A DNA stretch of 62,269 nucleotides from an uncultured Pelagibacteraceae bacterium (GTDB lineage: Bacteria; Pseudomonadota; Alphaproteobacteria; Pelagibacterales; Pelagibacteraceae): contig CACBIC010000005.1 of NCBI GenBank assembly GCA_902539235.1, positions 1-62,269 of the forward strand, read 5' to 3'. Shown piece after piece: positions 5,674 through 34,313 of this stretch. The notes below the pieces were generated by a model that saw only the letters and a program-made list of their open reading frames with translations, was not told where the DNA came from and did not search any database. How positions within the stretch are numbered: the first letter of the stretch is position 1; every line of letters starts with the position of its first letter. The translations under genes were made by a program, and so were the position numbers.

Positions 5674-6912
5674 ATGAAAAATATATTTAAACATAAAGAG
5701 ATAATTTTCCTTTTATTTGCAAGTTTTGCTGCGAGAGTTTTTATATCTTATTTTTACTCAGATACTGTTTTGAGAAATGAGTGGTCAATGATTCTTCATA
5801 ATTATCAAATTTCAGGAATTTTCGGTTTTAATGTCGTTATTGGTGAGAGTCATGCAATTCCAAAGTTTGCAGAAATTGGTGAGAGAGTCTTGCCAACAGC
5901 TTTTATGCCACCATTGTATTTATATTTTATTTATTTTGTAAAAAATTTATCAAATGAATTATTTGCTATAGCTCCGCTAATAGTTTTTTTACAAATCGTG
6001 ATGAGTTTAATATCTATATTTATGATTTATATAATTATTAAGAATCTTACAGAGAGTAAATTCTTAACAAGATTTTTTACTATTGCTTTTGCTTTTTTTC
6101 CAATTAATGTTTATGCGTCATCACAAATATCTTCAGTAAGTTTGCAAATATTATTATCATTAATATTTTTTTATTACTTACTGTTAATTTTTAAAAAAAA
6201 TAAATTGAAATATATCTTAATTTTTTCAGTTATAGGCGGTTTATTGATTTTAATTAGAGGTGAATTTTTAATACTGTACTTTTTCACTTTATTCTACTTT
6301 TTTATTTTTTATAAAAGACAATTGAAATTAATTTTAGTCTCTTTATCCTTAACACTACTTACTATTTCACCATATCTTACAAGAAATTATTTATATTTTG
6401 ATAACTTAACTCTTACTAAATCATTTGGATATAATCTACTTAAAGGAAATAACCCCTCTTTCAAAGCGGAGGGAGATATAGAACTTATTGAAAAAATAAA
6501 AAAAAGCGAAAAAAATATAACATTAGATAATAAATATGAATTTGAGCTCGATAAAATATTTAGAGATAAAGCTTTAAATTTTATTAGAAATAATCCTATA
6601 GAATATTTTAAACTATATTTGCTAAAAATTTTTTCTTTTTTATTTTTTGATATTAATTCGTCATACCCATATTATTATAACTTTTTTCATATAGTCCCAA
6701 AACTAATTATATCAATCACAAGTTTAATCGGTGCTATTACATTAATTAATAAAAAAGGATTCTTTCAGTATTTATCTTTTTACTTTTTTTTAAATATTTT
6801 TTTATTTTCTGTTTTTTTTATTTTACCGAGGTATAGTTTGATTCTACTTCCAGTTCAAATTTTACTATCTATTAATTTTATTAAATATCTAAGAAGAAAA
6901 TTCTTTAATTAA
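5674..6912 (+). CDS. GT-C fold (ArnT/PMT-like) membrane glycosyltransferase
   Basis: A 412-residue polytopic membrane protein starting with a hydrophobic helix at about residues 9-26, followed by repeated aromatic-rich helices and a small C-terminal soluble part. Length and layout resemble GT39/GT83-type transferases that move a sugar from a polyprenyl-phosphate donor on the periplasmic face. The first loop has LRNEW rather than a clear acidic pair, so the family is provisional. The ATG lies 3 bases after the CCA end of tRNA-Arg, which leaves no room for a ribosome-binding site; the next in-frame Met (residue 39) would delete the first membrane helix. The 3' end overlaps the convergent epimerase gene by 24 bases. 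Confidence 0.65.
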   Translation: MKNIFKHKEIIFLLFASFAARVFISYFYSDTVLRNEWSMILHNYQISGIFGFNVVIGESHAIPKFAEIGERVLPTAFMPPLYLYFIYFVKNLSNELFAIAPLIVFLQIVMSLISIFMIYIIIKNLTESKFLTRFFTIAFAFFPINVYASSQISSVSLQILLSLIFFYYLLLIFKKNKLKYILIFSVIGGLLILIRGEFLILYFFTLFYFFIFYKRQLKLILVSLSLTLLTISPYLTRNYLYFDNLTLTKSFGYNLLKGNNPSFKAEGDIELIEKIKKSEKNITLDNKYEFELDKIFRDKALNFIRNNPIEYFKLYLLKIFSFLFFDINSSYPYYYNFFHIVPKLIISITSLIGAITLINKKGFFQYLSFYFFLNIFLFSVFFILPRYSLILLPVQILLSINFIKYLRRKFFN

Positions 6913-7941
6913 TTCTTTTATAATTACTTTTGTAGAGTATTTTTGTTTCCAAGCGGGATAGTCCTTTTTGAATTTTTTCATATTGCTCACATACCAAACA
7001 TGATCACCAACACGATTTTTTCTAAAATATTTCTTTTTGATTTTAATTTTAACCATTTTCTCAATTATATTAATAGCTTCAAGAATAGAGCAGTTTGAAA
7101 ATCTTCCTCCACCAACATTATATATTTCACCTTTAGTTGGTCTTTTGTAGAATTCCCAAAAACATTTTACTAGGTCGTTGCTATGAATGTTATCTCTAAC
7201 TTGCTTGCCTTTATACCCGATTATATTATATTTTTTTTTCTTAAGACTAATTTTAACAAGATAGGATAGAAATCCATGCAGTTGTGCCCCAGAATGATTA
7301 GGCCCTGTAATACAACCAGCTCTAAAACAAGTAGTTTTTAGACCAACGTTTTTACCATATTCTTGAACTATTACGTCTGCATATGTTTTTGAAGCTCCGA
7401 AAAAACTATGAGTACAATCATCTACAGACATATTTTCATCTATACCCTGATAAAATTTATGATTTTTTTTAATCTCCCATCTTGTTTTTTTTTCAATCAA
7501 AGGCAAAAAATTAGGATTATCTCCGTAAACTTTATTTGTGGACATAAAAATAAAAGGTGCATTAGGTGAAAAAATTCTTGTAAGCTCAAGAAGGTTTAGC
7601 GTTCCTTTTGCGTTAATATCAAAGTCGATAAATGGTTTTTTTTTAGCCCAATCATGAGATGGCTGAGCAGCGCAATGAATGATTATAGATATTTTATTTT
7701 TAAATTTTCTGAAAATTTTTTTTAATGAATTATAGTTTCTTATGTCAACATTGTAATGCCTATATTTTTTTATAGATGATTTTAGTTTTGATTTGATCCA
7801 TGACGTGTCACCATCTTTTCCAAAAAAAAATCTTCTTGCGTTATTTTCTATACCTACAATTTCAAAACCTTTCTTTGAGAAAAATAATGCTGACTCAGAT
7901 CCTACTAAGCCACAGGAACCCGTTATTAAAGCTACTTTCAT
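6889..7941 (-). CDS. NAD-dependent sugar epimerase (CDP-tyvelose/paratose epimerase-like)
   Basis: A 350-residue extended short-chain dehydrogenase. The dinucleotide motif GSCGLVGS is at the N-terminus, IIHCAAQPSHDWA resembles the RfbE-type nucleotide-sugar epimerases, and FRAGCITGPNHSGAQLHGF follows the active site. The catalytic YxxxK position reads FGASK, so the usual tyrosine is a phenylalanine; the preceding MSTNKVYG supplies the Ser/Thr-type residues. The gene overlaps its upstream neighbour (7938-8963) by 4 bases, so the pair is probably translated together. It likely modifies a nucleotide sugar for surface glycan; the exact sugar cannot be read from sequence. Confidence 0.7.
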   Translation of the reverse strand: MKVALITGSCGLVGSESALFFSKKGFEIVGIENNARRFFFGKDGDTSWIKSKLKSSIKKYRHYNVDIRNYNSLKKIFRKFKNKISIIIHCAAQPSHDWAKKKPFIDFDINAKGTLNLLELTRIFSPNAPFIFMSTNKVYGDNPNFLPLIEKKTRWEIKKNHKFYQGIDENMSVDDCTHSFFGASKTYADVIVQEYGKNVGLKTTCFRAGCITGPNHSGAQLHGFLSYLVKISLKKKKYNIIGYKGKQVRDNIHSNDLVKCFWEFYKRPTKGEIYNVGGGRFSNCSILEAINIIEKMVKIKIKKKYFRKNRVGDHVWYVSNMKKFKKDYPAWKQKYSTKVIIKELIKEFSS

Positions 7942-8963
7942 TTGAAATAATCTCTCATATTATTTTTAACTAGCCAGGAGTAAATATCTTTTAAAGTTTT
8001 ATCTAAATTAATTTCTGGTTTCCATCTGTATGTTTTAAATATTTTACTATTATTAGTTATATAATAAGGAATATCATAATTTGAGGTACGTTTTACTTTT
8101 TTTATTAAAACCTTATTACCAGTTAGTTTAATACATTTGTTTGTTAAGTTTTTAAGAGAGGTATAATTTTTAAAGCCACCACCTACATTAAAAGTCAAGT
8201 TATTTATTTTATTAATTTTTTTTATTTGTAGTAGAATTATTCTACATACATCATTGATATGTATTATATCTCTTACTTGATGGCCTTCGCCTCCAAAACC
8301 TATGTATGATAATTTTTTTTTAAAAAAATGCCTAGCGACCCATAAGGGAACAAAACCTTGATCTTGTTTACCAAATTGCCACGGACCAGCGATTACTCCA
8401 AATCGATTAATTATATATTTCATTTTTTTTTCATAAAAAAATTCTTTTATAAGTTTTTCTGAAGCTAATTTAGTAAATCCATAAAGAGAACTTGCAGCAT
8501 CTGTCTCAAAACGTTCATCAATTGTTTTATCAATCTTAAGTGGCCTTTTTAAATCCAAATTTTTAATTAACTTTTTTAAGGATTTAATTGAATATACTCT
8601 ACTTGATGATAAAAAAATTATATTAGATTTATCTTTAATGCATTTTTTTAAAATATTATATGTGCCGACTAAATTAGTGTTAAAAACTTGATCAGGGTTT
8701 TTTTTTGATGCTTCAATAGCTGGCTCTGCGCAACAATCAATTATCAAATTGAACCTACTTAAATTTCCTATTTTTTTTGAATTACTTACATCTATTCTTA
8801 AATTAGTAATTTTTTCTCTTTTTAACCTCTTCTCATTTACCTCTGAACCTTTACGTATTAGATTATCTAAACTTAAAACATTAGCATTTTTTATTCTTTT
8901 TTTTAGAAAGATTGCAAGATTAGACCCAACAAAACCACATCCTCCTGTGATAAGTATTTTCAT
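7938..8963 (-). CDS. NAD-dependent epimerase/dehydratase (CDP-paratose 2-epimerase-like)
   Basis: A 341-residue extended SDR protein starting with ITGGCGFVGSNLA (NAD-binding). The active-site motif YGFTK is intact, unlike its downstream partner, and the segment FGKQDQGFVPLWVARHFF resembles CDP-paratose 2-epimerases. HQVRDIIHINDV is a typical C-terminal SDR landmark. It is the first gene of a two-gene leftward unit and diverges from the GT2 gene at 9014 across a 50-base A+T-rich spacer that should hold both promoters. Function in nucleotide-sugar conversion is likely; substrate is inferred only. Confidence 0.75.
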   Translation of the reverse strand: MKILITGGCGFVGSNLAIFLKKRIKNANVLSLDNLIRKGSEVNEKRLKREKITNLRIDVSNSKKIGNLSRFNLIIDCCAEPAIEASKKNPDQVFNTNLVGTYNILKKCIKDKSNIIFLSSSRVYSIKSLKKLIKNLDLKRPLKIDKTIDERFETDAASSLYGFTKLASEKLIKEFFYEKKMKYIINRFGVIAGPWQFGKQDQGFVPLWVARHFFKKKLSYIGFGGEGHQVRDIIHINDVCRIILLQIKKINKINNLTFNVGGGFKNYTSLKNLTNKCIKLTGNKVLIKKVKRTSNYDIPYYITNNSKIFKTYRWKPEINLDKTLKDIYSWLVKNNMRDYFK

Positions 8964-26077: not shown

Positions 26078-27885
26078 TGTCAGAGATAAAAAGAATACGT
26101 AATTTTTCTATAATTGCGCATATAGATCACGGAAAATCTACTATCGCAGATAGAATTATCCATAAGTGTGGAGGTTTAACAGACCGTGAAATGAAACAAC
26201 AAGTATTAGATTCTATGGATATAGAGAGGGAGCGTGGTATCACAATAAAAGCCCAAACAGTTAAACTAAATTATAAAGCGAAAGATGGCCAAAATTATAA
26301 ATTAAATATAATTGACACCCCAGGACATGTTGATTTTGGTTATGAAGTAAGCAGGTCTTTATCTGCATGTGAGGGATCACTTTTAATAGTTGATAGTACT
26401 CAGGGAGTAGAAGCGCAAACGTTAGCAAATGTTTATCAAGCACTAGAAATAAATCACGAAGTAATACCTATTTTGAATAAGATAGATTTACCTGCTTCGG
26501 ACATAGAAAAGACCAAAAAAGAAATTGAAGATGTTGTCGGTATTGAAACAACTAATGCAATTTCTTGTTCAGGAAAAACTGGTGAGGGTATAGAGGACAT
26601 ATTAGAAGCTATAATAAATAAGTTACCAGCCCCCAAAGGACTACCCAGTGAAAAACTGAAATGTTTATTGGTGGATAGTTGGTATGACAGTTATTTGGGA
26701 GTAGTGATTTTAGTGAGGGTTATCAATGGAAAATTAAAGAAAAGCATGAAGATAAAATTAATGTCAAATGACCAAGAGTATTTAATTGAAAAAGTTGGAG
26801 TATTTACTCCAAAACCTTATGATATTGATGAACTAAATTCTGGAGAAATAGGGTTTATTATCACAGGAATTAAATCATTATCTGAAACAAAAGTAGGAGA
26901 CACAATATGTGACGCATCCAATCCAGTTGATGAACCTCTGCCAGGTTTTAAACCAAGTAAGCCAGTAGTGTTTTGTGGCCTTTTTCCGGTAGATAGTTCT
27001 GAATATCAAAAATTAAAAGATGGATTGGCAAAGTTGAAATTGAATGATGCAAGTTTTTCATACGAACCGGAGTCTTCAAGTGCTCTTGGCTTAGGTTTCA
27101 GATGTGGATTTTTGGGATTACTGCATCTAGAAATAATAACAGAAAGACTAGAAAGAGAATTTGATGTTAATCTCATTACAACGACTCCTGGAGTAATTTA
27201 CAAAGTTCACTATACTAAAGGTAAAATCCTTGATTTACAAAATCCTTCAAATATGCCTGACCCATCACAAATAGAAAAAATTGAAGAACCTTGGATTAAA
27301 TCTACCGTTATAACACCTGATGAATATTTAGGATCAATAATAAAAATTTGCCAAGACAAAAGAGGAGTGCAGACTAATCTTTCTTATTCAGGAAATAGAG
27401 CAGTTTTATCTTATGATTTACCTCTTAATGAAGTTGTTTTTGATTTTAATGATAGGCTGAAATCGGTTTCGAGTGGCTATGCTAGTTTCGATTATGAGAT
27501 ATCTGGCTACAGAGAGGGAGATCTTGTAAAATTAGGAATACTAGTAAATTCTGAACCTGTAGACGCATTGGCAATGATTATTCACAAAGATTTTGCTCAA
27601 AAAACAGGAAGGCAAGTCTGTGAAAAATTAAAGGACCTAATTCCAAGGCATAATTTCATGATTCCTGTACAAGCAGCAATTGGTGGAAAAATTGTAGCTA
27701 GAGAGTCCATAAAAGGATTTAAAAAAGATGTATTAACAAAAATTCATGGTGGTGGTGCTACTGACCGAAAAAGAAAGCTCCTTGAGAAGCAAAAAAAAGG
27801 AAAAGCAAGGTCAAAACAATTTGGCAAAGTTGAAATACCTCAAGAGGCATTTATCGGAGTTTTGAAAATCAATAAAGAAACTTGA
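26077..27885 (+). CDS. lepA: Elongation factor 4 (LepA)
   Basis: A 602-residue translational GTPase. G1 is AHIDHGKST (residues 15-23), G3 DTPGHVDF, and G4 NKIDLP, followed by domains II, III and V and the LepA-specific C-terminal domain with [20 protein letters not shown]. Full family length. LepA acts on 70S ribosomes and affects initiation or back-translocation, with the exact role debated. The stop overlaps the next ATG by one base (TGATG), placing a glycosyltransferase in the same transcript. Confidence 0.97.
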
Positions 27886-28907
27886 TGAAAAAAAAACTAT
27901 TTATCTTTTCAAATGAAAGTATTTTTATTCAAGATGAAAAGTATTTTTGCGATAATATAGACTTAAAAACGAGTCCAGAAGGATTAAACAAAAAATTCGA
28001 AGTAAACCTTTTTGGTAGAAAATCTTCTAAGAAAAGAGCCCATGAAATAAAATTAAAAAAAATCAAGATTTTCTCTAATATATTTTCTTACTTGTCAGAA
28101 GTAGTAAAATCAACAAAGATTGAAAATACAAAGTATTTAGTGATTTCAATTACTCCATATACTGTTTCAATCTGTTTTTTTTTAAGACTTTTTGGAAAAA
28201 CTCCAATTATTTACTTAAGAAGTGATGGATATGGTGAGTACAATGCTATTTTAGGCAGCTTTGGTAAACTGATTTATCATTTAATGTTTAGCTTTACGTC
28301 ATTAATTTCAAATTTAATAAGCTGTAGAAATTACATATTAAAAGGAAAAAAAGGTAAAGTAATCTATCCATCACAACTAGATTCTGTCTGGTTTAAAAAA
28401 CCTAAAACTCAAGAGATTAAAAATTTTAAACTATTATATGTAGGAAGAATAAGAGTTGAAAAAGGAATTTTTTCTTTGGCAAGTTTAATAAAAAATAAGA
28501 GAGATATTTCATTGACAATTGTAGGTGCAGAAAAAAATACATCATATAAGATAAATCAAAGTAATATAAATATTCAGCTGACTCAAAGTAATAAGGCAAG
28601 ATTAATAAAATATTACGACGATCATAATATATTTATACTTCCTTCTTTTACCGAAGGACACCCAATGGTTTTACTTGAAGCCTTAGCCAGAAGAAGGCCA
28701 GTAATTATTTTTGATGATATCCAACATGTGATAGGAGATAAAAAAGGTATATTTGTAGCGAAAAGAAATTTTCTAAACTTCTTTGGGATTCTAAATCATA
28801 TCAAGAAAAATTATAAGAAAATTCAAAAAGATATGACGAAAAATAAACTTCCAACAAACAAAGAATTTATAGAAAAATTTGTTAAAGCCGTCGAAGATTA
28901 CAAATAG
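27885..28907 (+). CDS. Glycosyltransferase (GT-B, GT4-like)
   Basis: A protein of about 340 residues. [21 protein letters not shown] opens the donor-binding half, and [22 protein letters not shown] is the conserved donor-site acidic motif of GT4 enzymes. The N-terminal half is diverged but contains the expected hydrophobic strands. The ATG at 27885 shares one base with the lepA stop; a TTG three bases earlier is less likely. Its stop codon TAG supplies the first G of tRNA-Ser. Probable role in surface glycan synthesis; the sugar is unknown. Confidence 0.75.
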
Positions 28908-28996
28908 GAGAGGTGGCCGAGTGGTTGAAGGCGCACGCTTGGAAAGCGTGTAAACGGGAAACCGTTTCGAGGGTTCGAATCCCTCTCTCTCCGCCA
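28907..28996 (+). tRNA. tRNA-Ser (anticodon GGA)
   Basis: A 90-base class II tRNA with long variable arm and encoded CCA. The acceptor stem is GGAGAGG with TCTCTCC (last pair G-T), the anticodon loop TTGGAAA gives GGA for UCC/UCU codons, and the T-arm is GAGGG-TTCGAAT-CCCTC with discriminator G. Position 1 of the tRNA is the G of the TAG stop codon of the preceding glycosyltransferase gene. Confidence 0.97.
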
Positions 28997-29061
28997 TTTT
29001 ATATCCACACTTAACTAACAAGAGTCTTAAATTTTAGGGCCGAATCATTTAAATTAGTTTT

Positions 29062-29093
29062 AAGGGCAGTGGAGGGAGACTGAAGCTGCCTTT
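29062..29093 (+). terminator. Probable intrinsic terminator after tRNA-Ser
   Basis: Bases 29062-29069 pair with 29086-29093 (8 pairs, one G-T, core GGCAG/CTGCC) around a 16-base loop, followed by GC and five T residues. It would end the long rightward translation/tRNA-Ser unit just before the convergent gene at 29099. The loop is longer than usual, so certainty is moderate. Confidence 0.5.
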
Positions 29094-29098
29094 GCTTT

Positions 29099-29839
29099 TT
29101 ATAACCTTTTAATTCCTATCACTTTTAATTTAGCAGTCTTTTCAATCCTCTTAATTGTTTGGTTAATACCCATTACAACTGTCTTTTTCATGGGGCCATA
29201 GGCATGGATAAGTTTTTTATTTGATAGAGCTAGAGCTACATGACCTTTCCAATAAATAATATCGTTTTTCCTCACCTTTTTTAATTTAATATTTTTTTTA
29301 AAAAATTTTACCTGGTCTTTTGCATCTCTGGGACAAAATTTATTATTAAAATTTAAAAAAATCTGTATTAAAGCTGAACAATCAATTCCTTTAAAAGATT
29401 TTCCACCCCATTTGTACCTAATATTTTTAAATATAGATATTTTTCTAAATGGATTTTTGTCTTTGTAGGCAACAGGTTTTACATCGTTTTTATTAATCCA
29501 TCCTTTTGAAAATCGTAAGTATTTTTTCTTATTTTCTATAACTTTTATCCTTGAACCAAATGATAGCTCTTTAATTTTTTTATTTTTATTATGTTGACTA
29601 AAAACTTTTGATCTAAGCACATGTACTTTATGCGTTGGTTTCAAAAATTTAGATAATTTTTGATTTTTTATGTAACCATTATAATGGTCTTCTTTGATTT
29701 TAATCTTGAGCCATTTTCTACTTCTTTTAATTATTGAAAAACTATCTCCAAATAACATTTGTGTCACGATTTCAGATTTAATTGAGGGTTTTTTATAAAG
29801 ATTCGTAACATCAAAAATATTTGTAAAATATTTAGTCAT
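29099..29839 (-). CDS. SH3-domain NlpC/P60 peptidase, probably cytoplasmic
   Basis: A 246-residue protein with two bacterial SH3-like domains (about residues 5-62 and 70-125) and a C-terminal NlpC/P60 domain. The catalytic Cys154 is in GIDCSAL, His200 in KGHVALA and the third polar residue is His212 in LIHAYG. This layout resembles gamma-D-glutamyl-L-diamino-acid peptidases such as YkfC. No signal peptide or lipobox is visible, which points to action on imported peptides in the cytoplasm. The gene overlaps the AmpG-like permease gene by 8 bases, which fits muropeptide recycling. Catalytic class is firm; the exact bond cleaved is inferred. Confidence 0.8.
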   Translation of the reverse strand: MTKYFTNIFDVTNLYKKPSIKSEIVTQMLFGDSFSIIKRSRKWLKIKIKEDHYNGYIKNQKLSKFLKPTHKVHVLRSKVFSQHNKNKKIKELSFGSRIKVIENKKKYLRFSKGWINKNDVKPVAYKDKNPFRKISIFKNIRYKWGGKSFKGIDCSALIQIFLNFNNKFCPRDAKDQVKFFKKNIKLKKVRKNDIIYWKGHVALALSNKKLIHAYGPMKKTVVMGINQTIKRIEKTAKLKVIGIKRL

Positions 29840-31205
29840 TTAATTTAAGTTTATCTTTAATCATAAAAAGAAATATTAATGACGGAATTACCATTACTGC
29901 TGTAATGATAAAGAAAATACCCCAATCTCCATTTAACCAATCTACTAAAGCCCCAGAAGATGCTGCAAGTGTAGTTCTGCCTGCTGTTCCAATAGAGGCA
30001 AGAAGTGCATATTGAGTTGCAGTATAAGTTCTATCTACAAGCATTGAAATAAAAGCAACAAATGCCACTGTTGCAAAAGCTGCAGCCATATCATCAAATA
30101 TGACTGCAATAGCGAATAATAATTCAGACTTTCCTGACCAAGCTAGCAAAGAAAACAATAGATTTGTAGATGCCATTAATATCCCAGATACGAACATCGC
30201 TTTTATTACTCCAGAACGAATTGCAAATAATCCACCAAGCAATGTAAATATTACAGTGCTAACCCAACCAAGACCTTTAGAATATAAAGCAATATCTGAC
30301 TTGGTAAATCCTATTTCTTTATAAAAAATAACAGACATTCGCCCTAGAAAAGCTTCACCAATTTTAAAAAGAAAAACAAATCCTAAAATTGCAATAGCTA
30401 TATTAAAGCCATTTTTTTTAAAAAAACTTATTACTGGACCAGTAACAGTCCCAGTTATCCAAGCAAAAATTTTCGTAAATATGTTTGAAGATCCAAATTT
30501 ATCCTCAATCATCCTGTCGGTCTTCTTTTGGTTTTCAGTTCTATCAATTGGCTGGGTCTCTTTTACAAACATAAGACCAATATTGCATCCGATTATAAGG
30601 ATTCCCAAAACTAAAAAAGTTATTTGCCAATAATTTTCAAAACCTGCTTGTTGAAAAAATTCAGCTGAATTCAAAGCTACAACTCCACCTAATTTGTACC
30701 CAGTCCACCAACCAACCACTGACATTGCAGCACCAGCTTGCATTGACTTGCCCTCATTTTCACCGATTTGCTCAATTCTTAATGCATCTACAGTGATATC
30801 TTGTGTTGCTGAGGCTATTGCAATTATGAGTCCAATACTAATTACTAAAGATAAATTTGCTGATGGATTTATTAAGCTCCAAAAAATTAAACAAACTAAA
30901 ATCAAAGTTTGCATCGTGATAATCCAACCACGTCTATGGCCTACTTTATTTGTTAACCAAGGAATTTTAACTCTATCAACTAGTGGTGCCCAAAGATAAT
31001 TAAAAGCATATACACCAAAAATTAAACCTGCCCAACCTATTGTGCTTCTACTTAAACCGTCTTCTTTTAACCATAAGCTCAAACTGCTTCCAATTATTAC
31101 CCATGGAAAACCACTTATTGCCCCAAGCAATAATATTCTAATCATTCTTTGATCAAAATAAACTTTGAAAACTTCAGCCAGAGATTGTTTTTTATAAATT
31201 TCCAT
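29832..31205 (-). CDS. ampG: AmpG-like MFS permease
   Basis: A 457-residue inner-membrane transporter with about twelve to fourteen helices. The N-terminal segment LLGAISGFPWVIIGSSLSLWLKEDG and the loop LWAPLVDRVKIPW match the AmpG family, which imports anhydromuropeptides with protons; TQDITVDALRIEQ is another family landmark. A charged cytoplasmic loop (about residues 215-240) separates the halves. It is translated just before the NlpC/P60 peptidase with an 8-base overlap. Other peptide or siderophore substrates remain possible. Confidence 0.8.
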   Translation of the reverse strand: MEIYKKQSLAEVFKVYFDQRMIRILLLGAISGFPWVIIGSSLSLWLKEDGLSRSTIGWAGLIFGVYAFNYLWAPLVDRVKIPWLTNKVGHRRGWIITMQTLILVCLIFWSLINPSANLSLVISIGLIIAIASATQDITVDALRIEQIGENEGKSMQAGAAMSVVGWWTGYKLGGVVALNSAEFFQQAGFENYWQITFLVLGILIIGCNIGLMFVKETQPIDRTENQKKTDRMIEDKFGSSNIFTKIFAWITGTVTGPVISFFKKNGFNIAIAILGFVFLFKIGEAFLGRMSVIFYKEIGFTKSDIALYSKGLGWVSTVIFTLLGGLFAIRSGVIKAMFVSGILMASTNLLFSLLAWSGKSELLFAIAVIFDDMAAAFATVAFVAFISMLVDRTYTATQYALLASIGTAGRTTLAASSGALVDWLNGDWGIFFIITAVMVIPSLIFLFMIKDKLKLND

Positions 31206-31208
31206 TTA

Positions 31209-32657
31209 TTAATTTCTCCAAAAAGAAGGAAAGAATAAAACTAGTACTGCAAATAGTTCTAGTCTACCTAATAGCATTCCAGCCGACAAAATCCACTTTG
31301 AAATATCTGGTATATCTTTATAATTTCCATTAGGACCTATAACATCCCCTAACCCAGGCCCAACATTTGAAATTGAACTTGCTGCACCAGAAATAGAAGT
31401 AATAAAATCTAAACCGCTTATAGAGAGCAGCATAGCTATTATCAAAAAAATAAACAAAAAGGTGAAGATAAAGATTATGACTGAATTGATAAAGTTGTTT
31501 GATATTTTTTGATTATTATATTTTGTAATAATTACACTATTAGGAGAGATAAGTTTCTTAATTTGATTTTTTAAAAAAATTAATAACATCTGCAATCTAA
31601 AAATTTTTATTCCACATGCTGTAGAACCTGCACAACCACCAATGAACATTAACAATAGGAAAAATACTAAAGAAAATTTTCCCCACAATCCAAAATCATC
31701 CGTGACATATCCTGTTCCTGATAATATTGAAATAACATTAAAAGAGGAAATTCTTATTTTATCAAACAAACTACTTTCATAATTAATAGATAAAAGATAA
31801 AAAAACATTATGACTATTGAAATAATAAGTAAATAAATTAAACCTTTTATTTGGACATCCTGAAAAAAAACTTGTTTATTTCCTCTGGCAAATTTTAAAT
31901 AAGATATAAAAGGTATACTACCTAGTATAATAAAAATGCTTGCTATTATTTCAATATTTGGGTTTTGAAAAAAACCTATAGAATCATTATGTGTTGAAAA
32001 ACCACCAGTTGCAATAGTCGTCATTGCATGACTTATACTATCAAAAATTGTCATGCCAAAAATCCAATAAAAAAATCCGCATAATAGTGTTAGAGTGATA
32101 TAGACAGATATTATAATTGCAGCAACTTCAATAGTTCTAGGTAAAATTTTTTCAGTACTATCAGGTCCCTCCATCTTAAACAATTGCATTCCACCAACTT
32201 TTAATAAAGGTAAAATAGTTATAGCCATGACTACTATTCCAATACCACCTAGCCATTGCATAATTGCTCTCCATAACAAAATACTTTTTGGACTATTGTC
32301 CAGATCAGAAATTATTGTTGCACCAGTCGTAGTAATACCTGACATACTTTCAAAAAATGCTTCACTAAAATTGAAATTTTGAGTAGATAGTAAAAATGGC
32401 AAACTTCCGAACAATGCAACCATTATCCACGCCAACGATGAAAATAGAAAAGTTTGTCTTAAATTTAATTTAAATTCTTTTTCTAGATTAGCTAGGATAA
32501 ATAAAATACCAATGAAAATTGTAACAAATGACGCAGAAATAAAGCTATGACTACCTTCATCAAAAATTATTTGCAAAGTATAAGGAGCCAACATGAAAGC
32601 CCCTAAAACTATTAATAATATGCCGATTAAAAAAAAGACTGTTTTGTTTGTGGCCAT
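31209..32657 (-). CDS. trkH: Trk potassium uptake transmembrane protein
   Basis: A 482-residue member of the TrkH/KtrB superfamily with four M1-P-M2 repeats. The four pore loops can be read as SGITTTGAT, TIATGGFSTH, LSGTGYVTD and ISNVGPGLG, giving the selectivity-filter glycines. The gene heads the leftward unit with ampG (3 bases apart). It usually needs the cytoplasmic NAD/ATP-binding subunit TrkA or KtrA, which is not in this window. Confidence 0.92.
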   Translation of the reverse strand: MATNKTVFFLIGILLIVLGAFMLAPYTLQIIFDEGSHSFISASFVTIFIGILFILANLEKEFKLNLRQTFLFSSLAWIMVALFGSLPFLLSTQNFNFSEAFFESMSGITTTGATIISDLDNSPKSILLWRAIMQWLGGIGIVVMAITILPLLKVGGMQLFKMEGPDSTEKILPRTIEVAAIIISVYITLTLLCGFFYWIFGMTIFDSISHAMTTIATGGFSTHNDSIGFFQNPNIEIIASIFIILGSIPFISYLKFARGNKQVFFQDVQIKGLIYLLIISIVIMFFYLLSINYESSLFDKIRISSFNVISILSGTGYVTDDFGLWGKFSLVFFLLLMFIGGCAGSTACGIKIFRLQMLLIFLKNQIKKLISPNSVIITKYNNQKISNNFINSVIIFIFTFLFIFLIIAMLLSISGLDFITSISGAASSISNVGPGLGDVIGPNGNYKDIPDISKWILSAGMLLGRLELFAVLVLFFPSFWRN

Positions 32658-32750
32658 TAGAATTGAGATTATTTAAATAGTTTTAAAATTCAACTTAATA
32701 TCATGCTATTATATCTGTATTTTACGTATAAAATTTAATAAACCATAGTA

Positions 32751-34313
32751 ATGCTTGATAATAACTTAATTCAAACTACTTCCTCTTGGCCTTTTGTTGA
32801 AGTTAGAAAACTTCTTAAAGATAGAAAAGATATTATAAAAAAAAATAACAAGATTACATTTCAGACAGGATATGGCCCAAGCGGGCTTCCTCACATTGGA
32901 ACTTTTGGAGAAGTAGCAAGAACTACAATGATGATTAATGCACTTAATCATATACAAAATATTGAGCATGAACTTATTACTTTTTCTGATGATATGGATG
33001 GATTAAGAAAAGTCCCTGAAAATATTCCTAATGAAGAGATATTGAGAGAAAATTTGGGAAAACCCTTAACCTCAATCCCTGATCCTTTTAAAAAGTATAA
33101 TAGTTTTGGAGAGCATAATAATGAAATGCTCAAAGAATTTTTAAAAAGCTTTAAATTTAAATTTAATTTTAAAAGTTCAACTGAAAATTACCAAAAAGGA
33201 GTTTTCAATAATTCATTAATGCGAGTTTTAGAAAAATACGAGGAAATAATGAATATTATTTTACCAACTTTGAGACAAGAGAGACGAAAGACTTATTGTC
33301 CCTTTTTACCTATTTGTCCAAAAACAGGCAAAGTTCTTGAGATACCTTTAATTAGTAAAGATTTAAAAAGTGGAAAAGTTATATTTGAAAATGAAGAAAA
33401 CAAATTTGAGACAAATATTTTAGATGGAAATTGTAAACTTCAATGGAAAGTAGATTGGGCAATGCGGTGGTTTACCTTTGATGTAGATTTTGAAATGTAT
33501 GGAAAAGATTTAACTGAAAGCGCTATACTATCAAGCAAGATTTGTAGAATTCTCGGAAAAACCCCGCCAAATGGCTTTGCTTACGAATTGTTTTTAGATG
33601 AAAATGGAGAAAAAATTTCTAAGTCGAAAGGTAACGGTATTTCAATAGAACAATGGTTGAGATATGCTTCTCCCGAAAGTTTGTCTTTATACATGTATCC
33701 AAATCCGAAAAGAGCTAAGAAACTTTATTCTGAAGTTGTACCCAAAACTGTTGATGACTATCTTTCGAATATAGAGAAATATTCGTCTCAAGAAATAAAA
33801 GACAAAATAATAAATCCTGTATGGCACGTTCATAATGGTAAGCCGCCGCAAGAAAAAATTGTTATGCCTTTTTCAATGTTATTAAATTTAGTTGGTTCTA
33901 GTAATGCCGACACAAAGGAAGTGCTTTGGAAATTTATAAATAGGTTTCACAAAGAAATTAAACCTAAAGATCATAAAATTTTAAATCAACTTACTGAATA
34001 TGCAATTAATTATTTTAAAGATAAAGTTGAACCTAATAAAAAATATAAAAAGCCAAATAGCAGCGAAAAAAAAGCTTTAGAAAATTTAGTGAGTAAATTA
34101 AAGAAACTAGACCAATCGTTAAAGCCAGAAGAAATCCAAACCCAAGTTTATACGGTTGGAAAAGAAAATGGGTATGAAAAAAATTTGAGAGAATGGTTTA
34201 AACTTATTTATGAAGTTGTTTTCGGGGAAGAAAACGGACCAAGAATGGGTTTTTTTATAAGTTTTTTTGGACTTAAACAAACAATTGATCTAATAAATGA
34301 TAAAATAAAATAA
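32751..34313 (+). CDS. lysK: Lysyl-tRNA synthetase, class I
   Basis: A 520-residue class I enzyme charging tRNA-Lys. The HIGH motif appears as GPSGLPHIGTFGEV (about residues 43-56), KMSKS as GEKISKSKGNG (about 286-296), and a zinc-type segment CPFLPICPKTGKV lies between. Most bacteria use the unrelated class II LysS; the class I form is typical of archaea, spirochaetes and alphaproteobacteria. It diverges from trkH over a 93-base spacer and overlaps pyrD by one base. Confidence 0.95.
   Translation: MLDNNLIQTTSSWPFVEVRKLLKDRKDIIKKNNKITFQTGYGPSGLPHIGTFGEVARTTMMINALNHIQNIEHELITFSDDMDGLRKVPENIPNEEILRENLGKPLTSIPDPFKKYNSFGEHNNEMLKEFLKSFKFKFNFKSSTENYQKGVFNNSLMRVLEKYEEIMNIILPTLRQERRKTYCPFLPICPKTGKVLEIPLISKDLKSGKVIFENEENKFETNILDGNCKLQWKVDWAMRWFTFDVDFEMYGKDLTESAILSSKICRILGKTPPNGFAYELFLDENGEKISKSKGNGISIEQWLRYASPESLSLYMYPNPKRAKKLYSEVVPKTVDDYLSNIEKYSSQEIKDKIINPVWHVHNGKPPQEKIVMPFSMLLNLVGSSNADTKEVLWKFINRFHKEIKPKDHKILNQLTEYAINYFKDKVEPNKKYKKPNSSEKKALENLVSKLKKLDQSLKPEEIQTQVYTVGKENGYEKNLREWFKLIYEVVFGEENGPRMGFFISFFGLKQTIDLINDKIK

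Follow-up and report, generated by a model that had tools for sequence, protein, structure and literature searches.

AmpG-family permease and YkfC-type peptidase genes kept together in SAR11, with a likely role in cytoplasmic recycling of peptidoglycan

An AmpG-peptidase gene pair in SAR11

We have analysed a stretch of 62,269 nucleotides (hereafter the window; contig CACBIC010000005.1 of assembly GCA_902539235.1) from an uncultured Pelagibacteraceae bacterium of the SAR11 group (Pelagibacterales), whose genome (G000) has 808 kb and is 71% complete. On its reverse strand, which carries the features of trkH, ampG and the peptidase gene given below, a gene coding for an AmpG-family permease of the major facilitator superfamily (MFS) (29832..31205, 457 aa, ATG start) is followed by one coding for a YkfC-type NlpC/P60 peptidase without signal peptide (29099..29839, 246 aa, ATG start). 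We consider it quite likely that SAR11 bacteria recycle peptidoglycan in the cytoplasm and that this locus provides for import and peptide breakdown. From the genes, their linkage, the predicted fold of the peptidase, its residues and the gene inventory of the order we infer transport, cleavage and peptide breakdown as follows. AmpG, judged by its family, would carry across the inner membrane the anhydro-muropeptides that lytic transglycosylases of the same cell set free. An Amidase_2 amidase, also without signal and encoded elsewhere in the genome, would take the peptide off the sugar, NagZ would split the disaccharide and AnmK would phosphorylate the anhydro-N-acetylmuramic acid (anhMurNAc), activities suggested by the genes found. 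The peptide would then be broken down to amino acids, setting meso-diaminopimelic acid (mDAP) free, and not be re-ligated whole.

The peptidase

Pfam searches with the peptidase gave NLPC_P60 (48.1 bits, cut-off 23), SH3_16 (44.3 bits) and SH3_3 (43.2 bits), all above cut-off and in agreement with the preliminary description of this DNA, made from the sequence alone, which had named an NlpC/P60 peptidase with SH3 domains. The domain order is SH3b-SH3b-NlpC/P60, with the first SH3b domain (SH3_16) at codons 14-62 (29654..29800) and the catalytic domain at codons 141-214 (29198..29419). For the second SH3b domain the sequence gives a hint only (SH3_YKFC_2nd, 15.8 bits, below the cut-off of 27.4), and YkfC, which has two such domains, aligns over 237 of the 246 residues. 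The AlphaFold model (mean pLDDT 95.2) had as its top match in structural alignment the Bacillus cereus YkfC 3h41 (Z 25.6, 2.7 Å over those 237 residues), with dipeptidyl-peptidase VI (DPP VI) tied with it within 1 (Z 24.6), and 3h41 was also the top profile match (1.4e-22). The closest named relatives are in Pelagibacteraceae single-cell genomes, with up to 85% identity.

The catalytic Cys154 (29378..29380) and His200 (29240..29242) and the second His of the triad, His212 (29204..29206), are invariant in 21/21 aligned relatives, bearing out the intact Cys-His-His claimed earlier. Asp172 (29324..29326) and Tyr53 (29681..29683) are invariant in the same 21 relatives and also in the 80 named SAR11 loci that are the best of at least 578 relatives (hereafter the best named loci). 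They are the equivalents of B. cereus YkfC Asp256, which would neutralise the free N-terminus, and Tyr118, which would contact the free L-Ala amine; in the structural study these two residues mark a YkfC-like subfamily and are associated with a free L-Ala at the N-terminus (PMC2954226). In the HMMER alignment to 3h41 the residues of the NlpC domain are in register, the Tyr match resting on an aligned Y-x-G motif. Furthermore, the equivalents of YkfC Tyr118, Asp237, Cys238, Arg255 and Asp256 are invariant in all 80 best named loci, and those of His291 and His303 are found in 79 of them (one gap). Both Asp and Tyr are kept as well in 23/23 alignable peptidases of other Alphaproteobacteria (27 loci, 4 of them without a BLAST match). 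As judged from the match of its predicted fold and the putative L-Ala-binding residues, the peptidase is YkfC/DPP VI-like. It resembles YkfC of Bacillus and DPP VI (C40, NlpC/P60 with SH3b) in domain order, fold, triad and L-Ala-binding Tyr and Asp, but it is shorter (246 aa), has ~19% identity in the structural alignment and has AmpG as its partner, whereas theirs is a Dpp or epimerase gene.

Its location is predicted from the sequence at the start of the gene. The ATG is immediately preceded by a TAA stop codon, which leaves no room for a hidden N-terminal extension, while the top 15-residue Kyte-Doolittle mean in residues 1-45 is 1.05, compared with 2.49 for the lipoprotein signal of Escherichia coli YajG and 2.27 for the window AmpG. 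In the 80 best named loci the maximum never exceeds 1.09. The absence of an export signal noted before is thus upheld, and the peptidase very probably acts in the cytoplasm; B. subtilis YkfC is likewise reported to lack a signal peptide (PMC2954226). MepS appears among the distant sequence matches; an identity as a MepS-like wall hydrolase was rejected, there being no signal and the YkfC residues being present.

The YkfC of Chlamydia trachomatis is also reported to act in the cytoplasm, where it recycles tri- and tetrapeptides that an amidase has released; it cuts the free tri- and tetrapeptide and not MurNAc-tripeptide, UDP-MurNAc-tripeptide or lipid II (PMC9928106). That organism differs in being an intracellular pathogen, and the excerpts of the paper do not mention an AmpG-peptidase gene pair. 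Because YkfC enzymes need a free N-terminal L-Ala and reject sugar-linked peptides, the substrate of the SAR11 enzyme should be the peptide released by the amidase, which would have to act first. The preliminary description had the peptidase cut the imported muropeptides themselves; recycling by AmpG together with a cytoplasmic peptidase stands in all likelihood, with this change of substrate.

Conservation of the pair

In a sample of 147 genomes of the order, 136 gave a match to the peptidase and 137 one to the permease. Neither was found in 10 genomes, and G100 has a permease fragment only, at a contig edge. In 136/136 genomes having both, the two genes lie on one contig and no more than 7 kb apart: 112 within 60 bases, 17 within 61-1000 bases and 7 within 1-7 kb (the distances for the type B permeases described below are upper bounds, from partial matches). 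AmpG lies upstream of the peptidase, in tandem on the same strand, in 80/80 best named loci, and the genes overlap by 8, 11 or 14 bases, with a mechanical choice of starts, in 74 of them, indicating an adjacency beyond chance. In the window they share 29832..29839, precisely the 8 bases reported previously. Two arrangements exist, tandem in family f1 (91 genomes) and convergent in family f2 (45), and the pair is seen in two genomic places; rearrangement has thus not parted the two genes.

The permease

The permease reaches 365 bits against the AmpG family TIGR00901, just above its cut-off (350). It falls short of the more restricted AmpG equivalogs (PRK11010, 187 versus 756 bits; PRK11902, 201 versus 656 bits), so that the earlier label of AmpG-like permease holds for the wider family. 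Four solved structures matched it at E <=1, all of them AmpG (best 3.7e-48). A tree of 61 AmpG proteins, made by a quick method, came with long-branch warnings and with 25 of its 58 inner branches open, and only its well supported groups are used here. One of them (support 100), which we call type A, holds the window protein together with 12 further SAR11 proteins and three found in other families of the class; its stem is long (1.75 changes per column). Another (type B) unites 8 SAR11 sequences (support 100) and lies with 7 ordinary alphaproteobacterial AmpGs (support 100). The two types are about 30-35% identical, and type B, the canonical AmpG, scores 488 bits in G001. On plasmids, the relatives of the permease that were found are all below 60% identity.

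The 137 permease matches in the order comprise 121 of type A and 16 of type B, with no genome having both; type B was recognised by matching the window query with a low score and in separate pieces, which was confirmed from open reading frame (ORF) and BLAST in the 8 regions inspected. Downstream of the potassium-uptake gene trkH, we found type A in the window and in five other loci (L049, L051, L052, L054, L057) and type B in two (L050, L058). Beside cytochrome c, kdsB-like and pheA-like genes, type A is present in 7 regions of family f2 and type B in L040-L044 and L059. In a genome of the window's own genus (G118), type B has trkH on one side and, on the other, a peptidase with 82% identity to that of the window. 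Sharing a slot and never occurring together, the two types look interchangeable, and the comparison is best read as AmpG types that replace each other in place.

The rest of the route

The pathway was followed in a panel of 25 chosen genomes of the order, that of the window and 24 of at least 90% completeness, four of which lack the pair. AnmK, the Amidase_2 amidase and M17 aminopeptidase were found in 25/25 and a NagZ-type GH3 in 22/25, so that the part of the E. coli type recycling set formed by AnmK, an AmpD-like amidase and NagZ is present in 25, 25 and 22 genomes respectively. The E. coli set for reuse of the whole peptide was not found, with S66/LdcA in 0/25 and the Mpl ligase over cut-off in 0/25, both searches being positive in control genomes. 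Sub-threshold matches to the Mpl model were taken, by score only, as MurC and other Mur ligases, none having reached the cut-off. Of the two enzymes singled out by the preliminary description, the anhMurNAc kinase occurs throughout the panel and Mpl nowhere in it over cut-off. With kinase and amidase in every panel genome, NagZ-type GH3 in most and a peptidase that would depend on prior action of the amidase, the path is not the minimal one first suggested. Since LdcA and Mpl are missing, breakdown of the peptide is most likely, not its re-ligation, and wall peptides are probably broken down in these cells, as far as gene content tells.

In the window genome the amidase has 240 aa and a start without hydrophobic stretch (judged by eye), and the AnmK ORF is whole (373 aa). 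A GH3 gene of G108 stands just before a gene that by eye is scpA-like. Recycling in Caulobacter crescentus is reported to use nearly the same set (AmpG, AmiR/AmpD, NagZ, AnmK) with the same gaps (no LdcA, no Mpl), and breakdown of the peptide to amino acids has been proposed there (PMC13046382, PMC11980594). Neither paper mentions an NlpC/P60 peptidase, and one of them names MpaA for the same bond.

The peptidase outside SAR11

In the class, 60/210 genomes match the peptidase profile at 1e-12 and 148/210 match TIGR00901 at 1e-30. By reading the tables by eye we counted 57 genomes outside the order with the peptidase, 33 of them also with AmpG. At the 27 best loci outside the order (flanks of ~1.5 kb, neighbour clusters identified from one to three members each), an M17 aminopeptidase gene adjoins that of the peptidase at 18, a YejF-like ATPase gene at 9. 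The full set of binding protein, two permeases and ATPase was found in 6 of 20 wider regions (L181, L182, L184, L185, L189, L194), which had been chosen partly for their YejF-like neighbour. In these regions (L181-L200) a YkfC-type peptidase gene is seen with an M17 gene and often a MarR-type regulator gene, facing a YejABEF-like operon. In Agrobacterium tumefaciens, Yej has been shown experimentally to be a muropeptide importer (PMC9790009). The ATPase gene of an importer like YejBEF-YepA adjoins the same peptidase family in other Alphaproteobacteria (9/27 loci), with the differences that the A. tumefaciens system is an ABC transporter and that of SAR11 an MFS permease, and that the peptidase goes unmentioned in that study (PMC9790009). 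A peptidase gene also lies beside trkH, convergently, in another alphaproteobacterial family (L199 of G304, 6418-8738), which may be coincidence.

One genome of another family of the class (G254, 99% complete) has an ORF that combines an Amidase_2 domain (1.4e-14) with SH3 and NlpC/P60 and is truncated where the contig ends (C19; stretch L252, 1-1051). Its amidase part has T7 lysozyme, an amidase, as the closest solved structure and gave no tblastn match in the other fetched loci. On contig C44 (L253, 1-1562) a type A AmpG gene is faced at the contig end by a fragment that reads by eye as a peptidase C-terminus. There is a single peptidase match in G254, and the two contigs probably come from a single locus broken up by a gap in the assembly. 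The fusion puts the amidase and peptidase steps in one chain, as expected from the order proposed above. In C44, ampG has a YkuD-type L,D-transpeptidase gene as its neighbour. Long open frames round the peptidase in some G+C-rich genomes were rejected as further fusions, having no amidase match; they are most likely due to the mechanical choice of starts.

Weighing the alternatives

Several observations weigh against recycling as we propose it. Type A is divergent, keeping 53 of the 76 columns conserved in 40 other AmpGs (a count that omits eight rows, five divergent and three type A from outside SAR11). At its Asn69 and Trp167, which correspond to E. coli positions 62 and 153, Lys62 and Arg153 are replaced, as is Gly275 by Phe (12 or 13 of 13 rows). 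With these near-invariant residues lost, the substrate of type A could differ. Four genomes at least 90% complete lack both AmpG and peptidase and keep AnmK, amidase and GH3; three of these (G076, G107, G117) are also without a trkH ortholog, which may mean that the entire operon was lost or that the assemblies have a gap there. The GH3/NagZ gene was not found in the window genome (71% complete), G118 and G090. Of the 33 genomes outside the order with both genes, 0 of the 8 with both on one listed contig have them within 100 kb (read by eye), the remaining ones having the genes on different contigs or at a place not listed. An AmpG-peptidase adjacency across the class was consequently rejected.

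These features of type A, barely over the TIGR00901 cut-off, on a long stem and without conserved charged residues, are what would be expected if the permease carried another substrate, for example oligopeptides or sugars, and the peptidase merely shared its operon. We regard this as unlikely, since type B takes the place of type A by the same peptidase in 16 genomes, with 0/137 carrying both. Slightly less probable still is that the module serves mainly for feeding on peptidoglycan fragments dissolved in seawater, as the preliminary description had also suggested, more than for recycling the cell's own wall. It would suit a scavenging lifestyle, but a like set (AnmK, NagZ, amidase, no LdcA or Mpl) is reported to turn over the own wall in Caulobacter (PMC13046382, PMC11980594). 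Moreover, neither an outer-membrane uptake system nor a secreted peptidoglycan hydrolase was seen among the neighbours identified by Pfam (representatives only), and the titles and opening lines of the papers found on SAR11 with peptidoglycan and muramic acid show nothing on uptake.

It is very improbable that the peptidase is a wall hydrolase exported non-classically and acting on the sacculus: NlpC/P60 enzymes such as MepS do work outside, but here there is neither a signal nor room for one, the fold is nearest to YkfC/DPP VI, the residues for the free N-terminus are invariant, and C. trachomatis YkfC is reported to be inactive on high-molecular-weight peptidoglycan (PMC9928106). SAR11 genomes are compact and trkH sits in the same operon without a known link, yet an accident of genome streamlining with no shared function hardly explains a pair kept in two places and two orientations, separated by more than 7 kb in 0/136 genomes, with a peptidase gene that adjoins another muropeptide-type importer (Yej) in other families.

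For SAR11 we also put forward tentatively, and rate as somewhat short of an even chance, a scheme of peptide-burning recycling in which type A AmpG, with its altered conserved residues and hence perhaps another muropeptide preference, and type B would be exchangeable beside a fixed YkfC-type peptidase. The peptidase would then be the constant of the class, with AmpG as its partner in SAR11 and YejBEF in other groups, and joined to an amidase in a single case.

The neighbourhood of the pair

trkH (31209..32657) ends 3 bases upstream of ampG, and trkH, ampG and nlpC, in this order, likely form one operon; to our knowledge trkH has no role in recycling. By eye, a GGAG-type ribosome site precedes ampG and no clear site of its own was seen upstream of the nlpC start, so with overlapping genes translational coupling of ampG and nlpC is likely. 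A tRNA gene on the strand opposite the operon (28907-28993) closes the neighbourhood and was the only hit of an Rfam scan of 28500-33500. The promoter scan gave 15 candidates for 23.3 expected from shuffles, that is, not above shuffles.

Other genes were seen around the pair. In the window a glycosyltransferase-like ORF (27882-28907, Pfam Glycos_transf_1, first start TTG) overlaps by 4 bases the end of the preceding lepA-like ORF, and a relative of it is near the AmpG-peptidase pair in G118 (L050). In two SAR11 genomes a TPR-sulfotransferase gene is directly 3' of the peptidase gene, in L058 (identified) and L054 (by BLAST cluster).

Significance

Few cells in the sea are as numerous as SAR11 bacteria, whose genomes are very small. 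That the pair is kept in nearly all the sampled members suggests that even in SAR11 recycling of the wall repays what it costs. Within the literature searched we found nothing on AmpG in SAR11, and the recycling route seems undescribed for this group. The fate of the peptide, burned or reused, matters for how much D-amino acid and mDAP material SAR11 cells keep or release. Furthermore, the peptidase is a candidate for the cytoplasmic enzyme that would break down the peptide in Caulobacter-like pathways without Mpl, for which such a step has been proposed.
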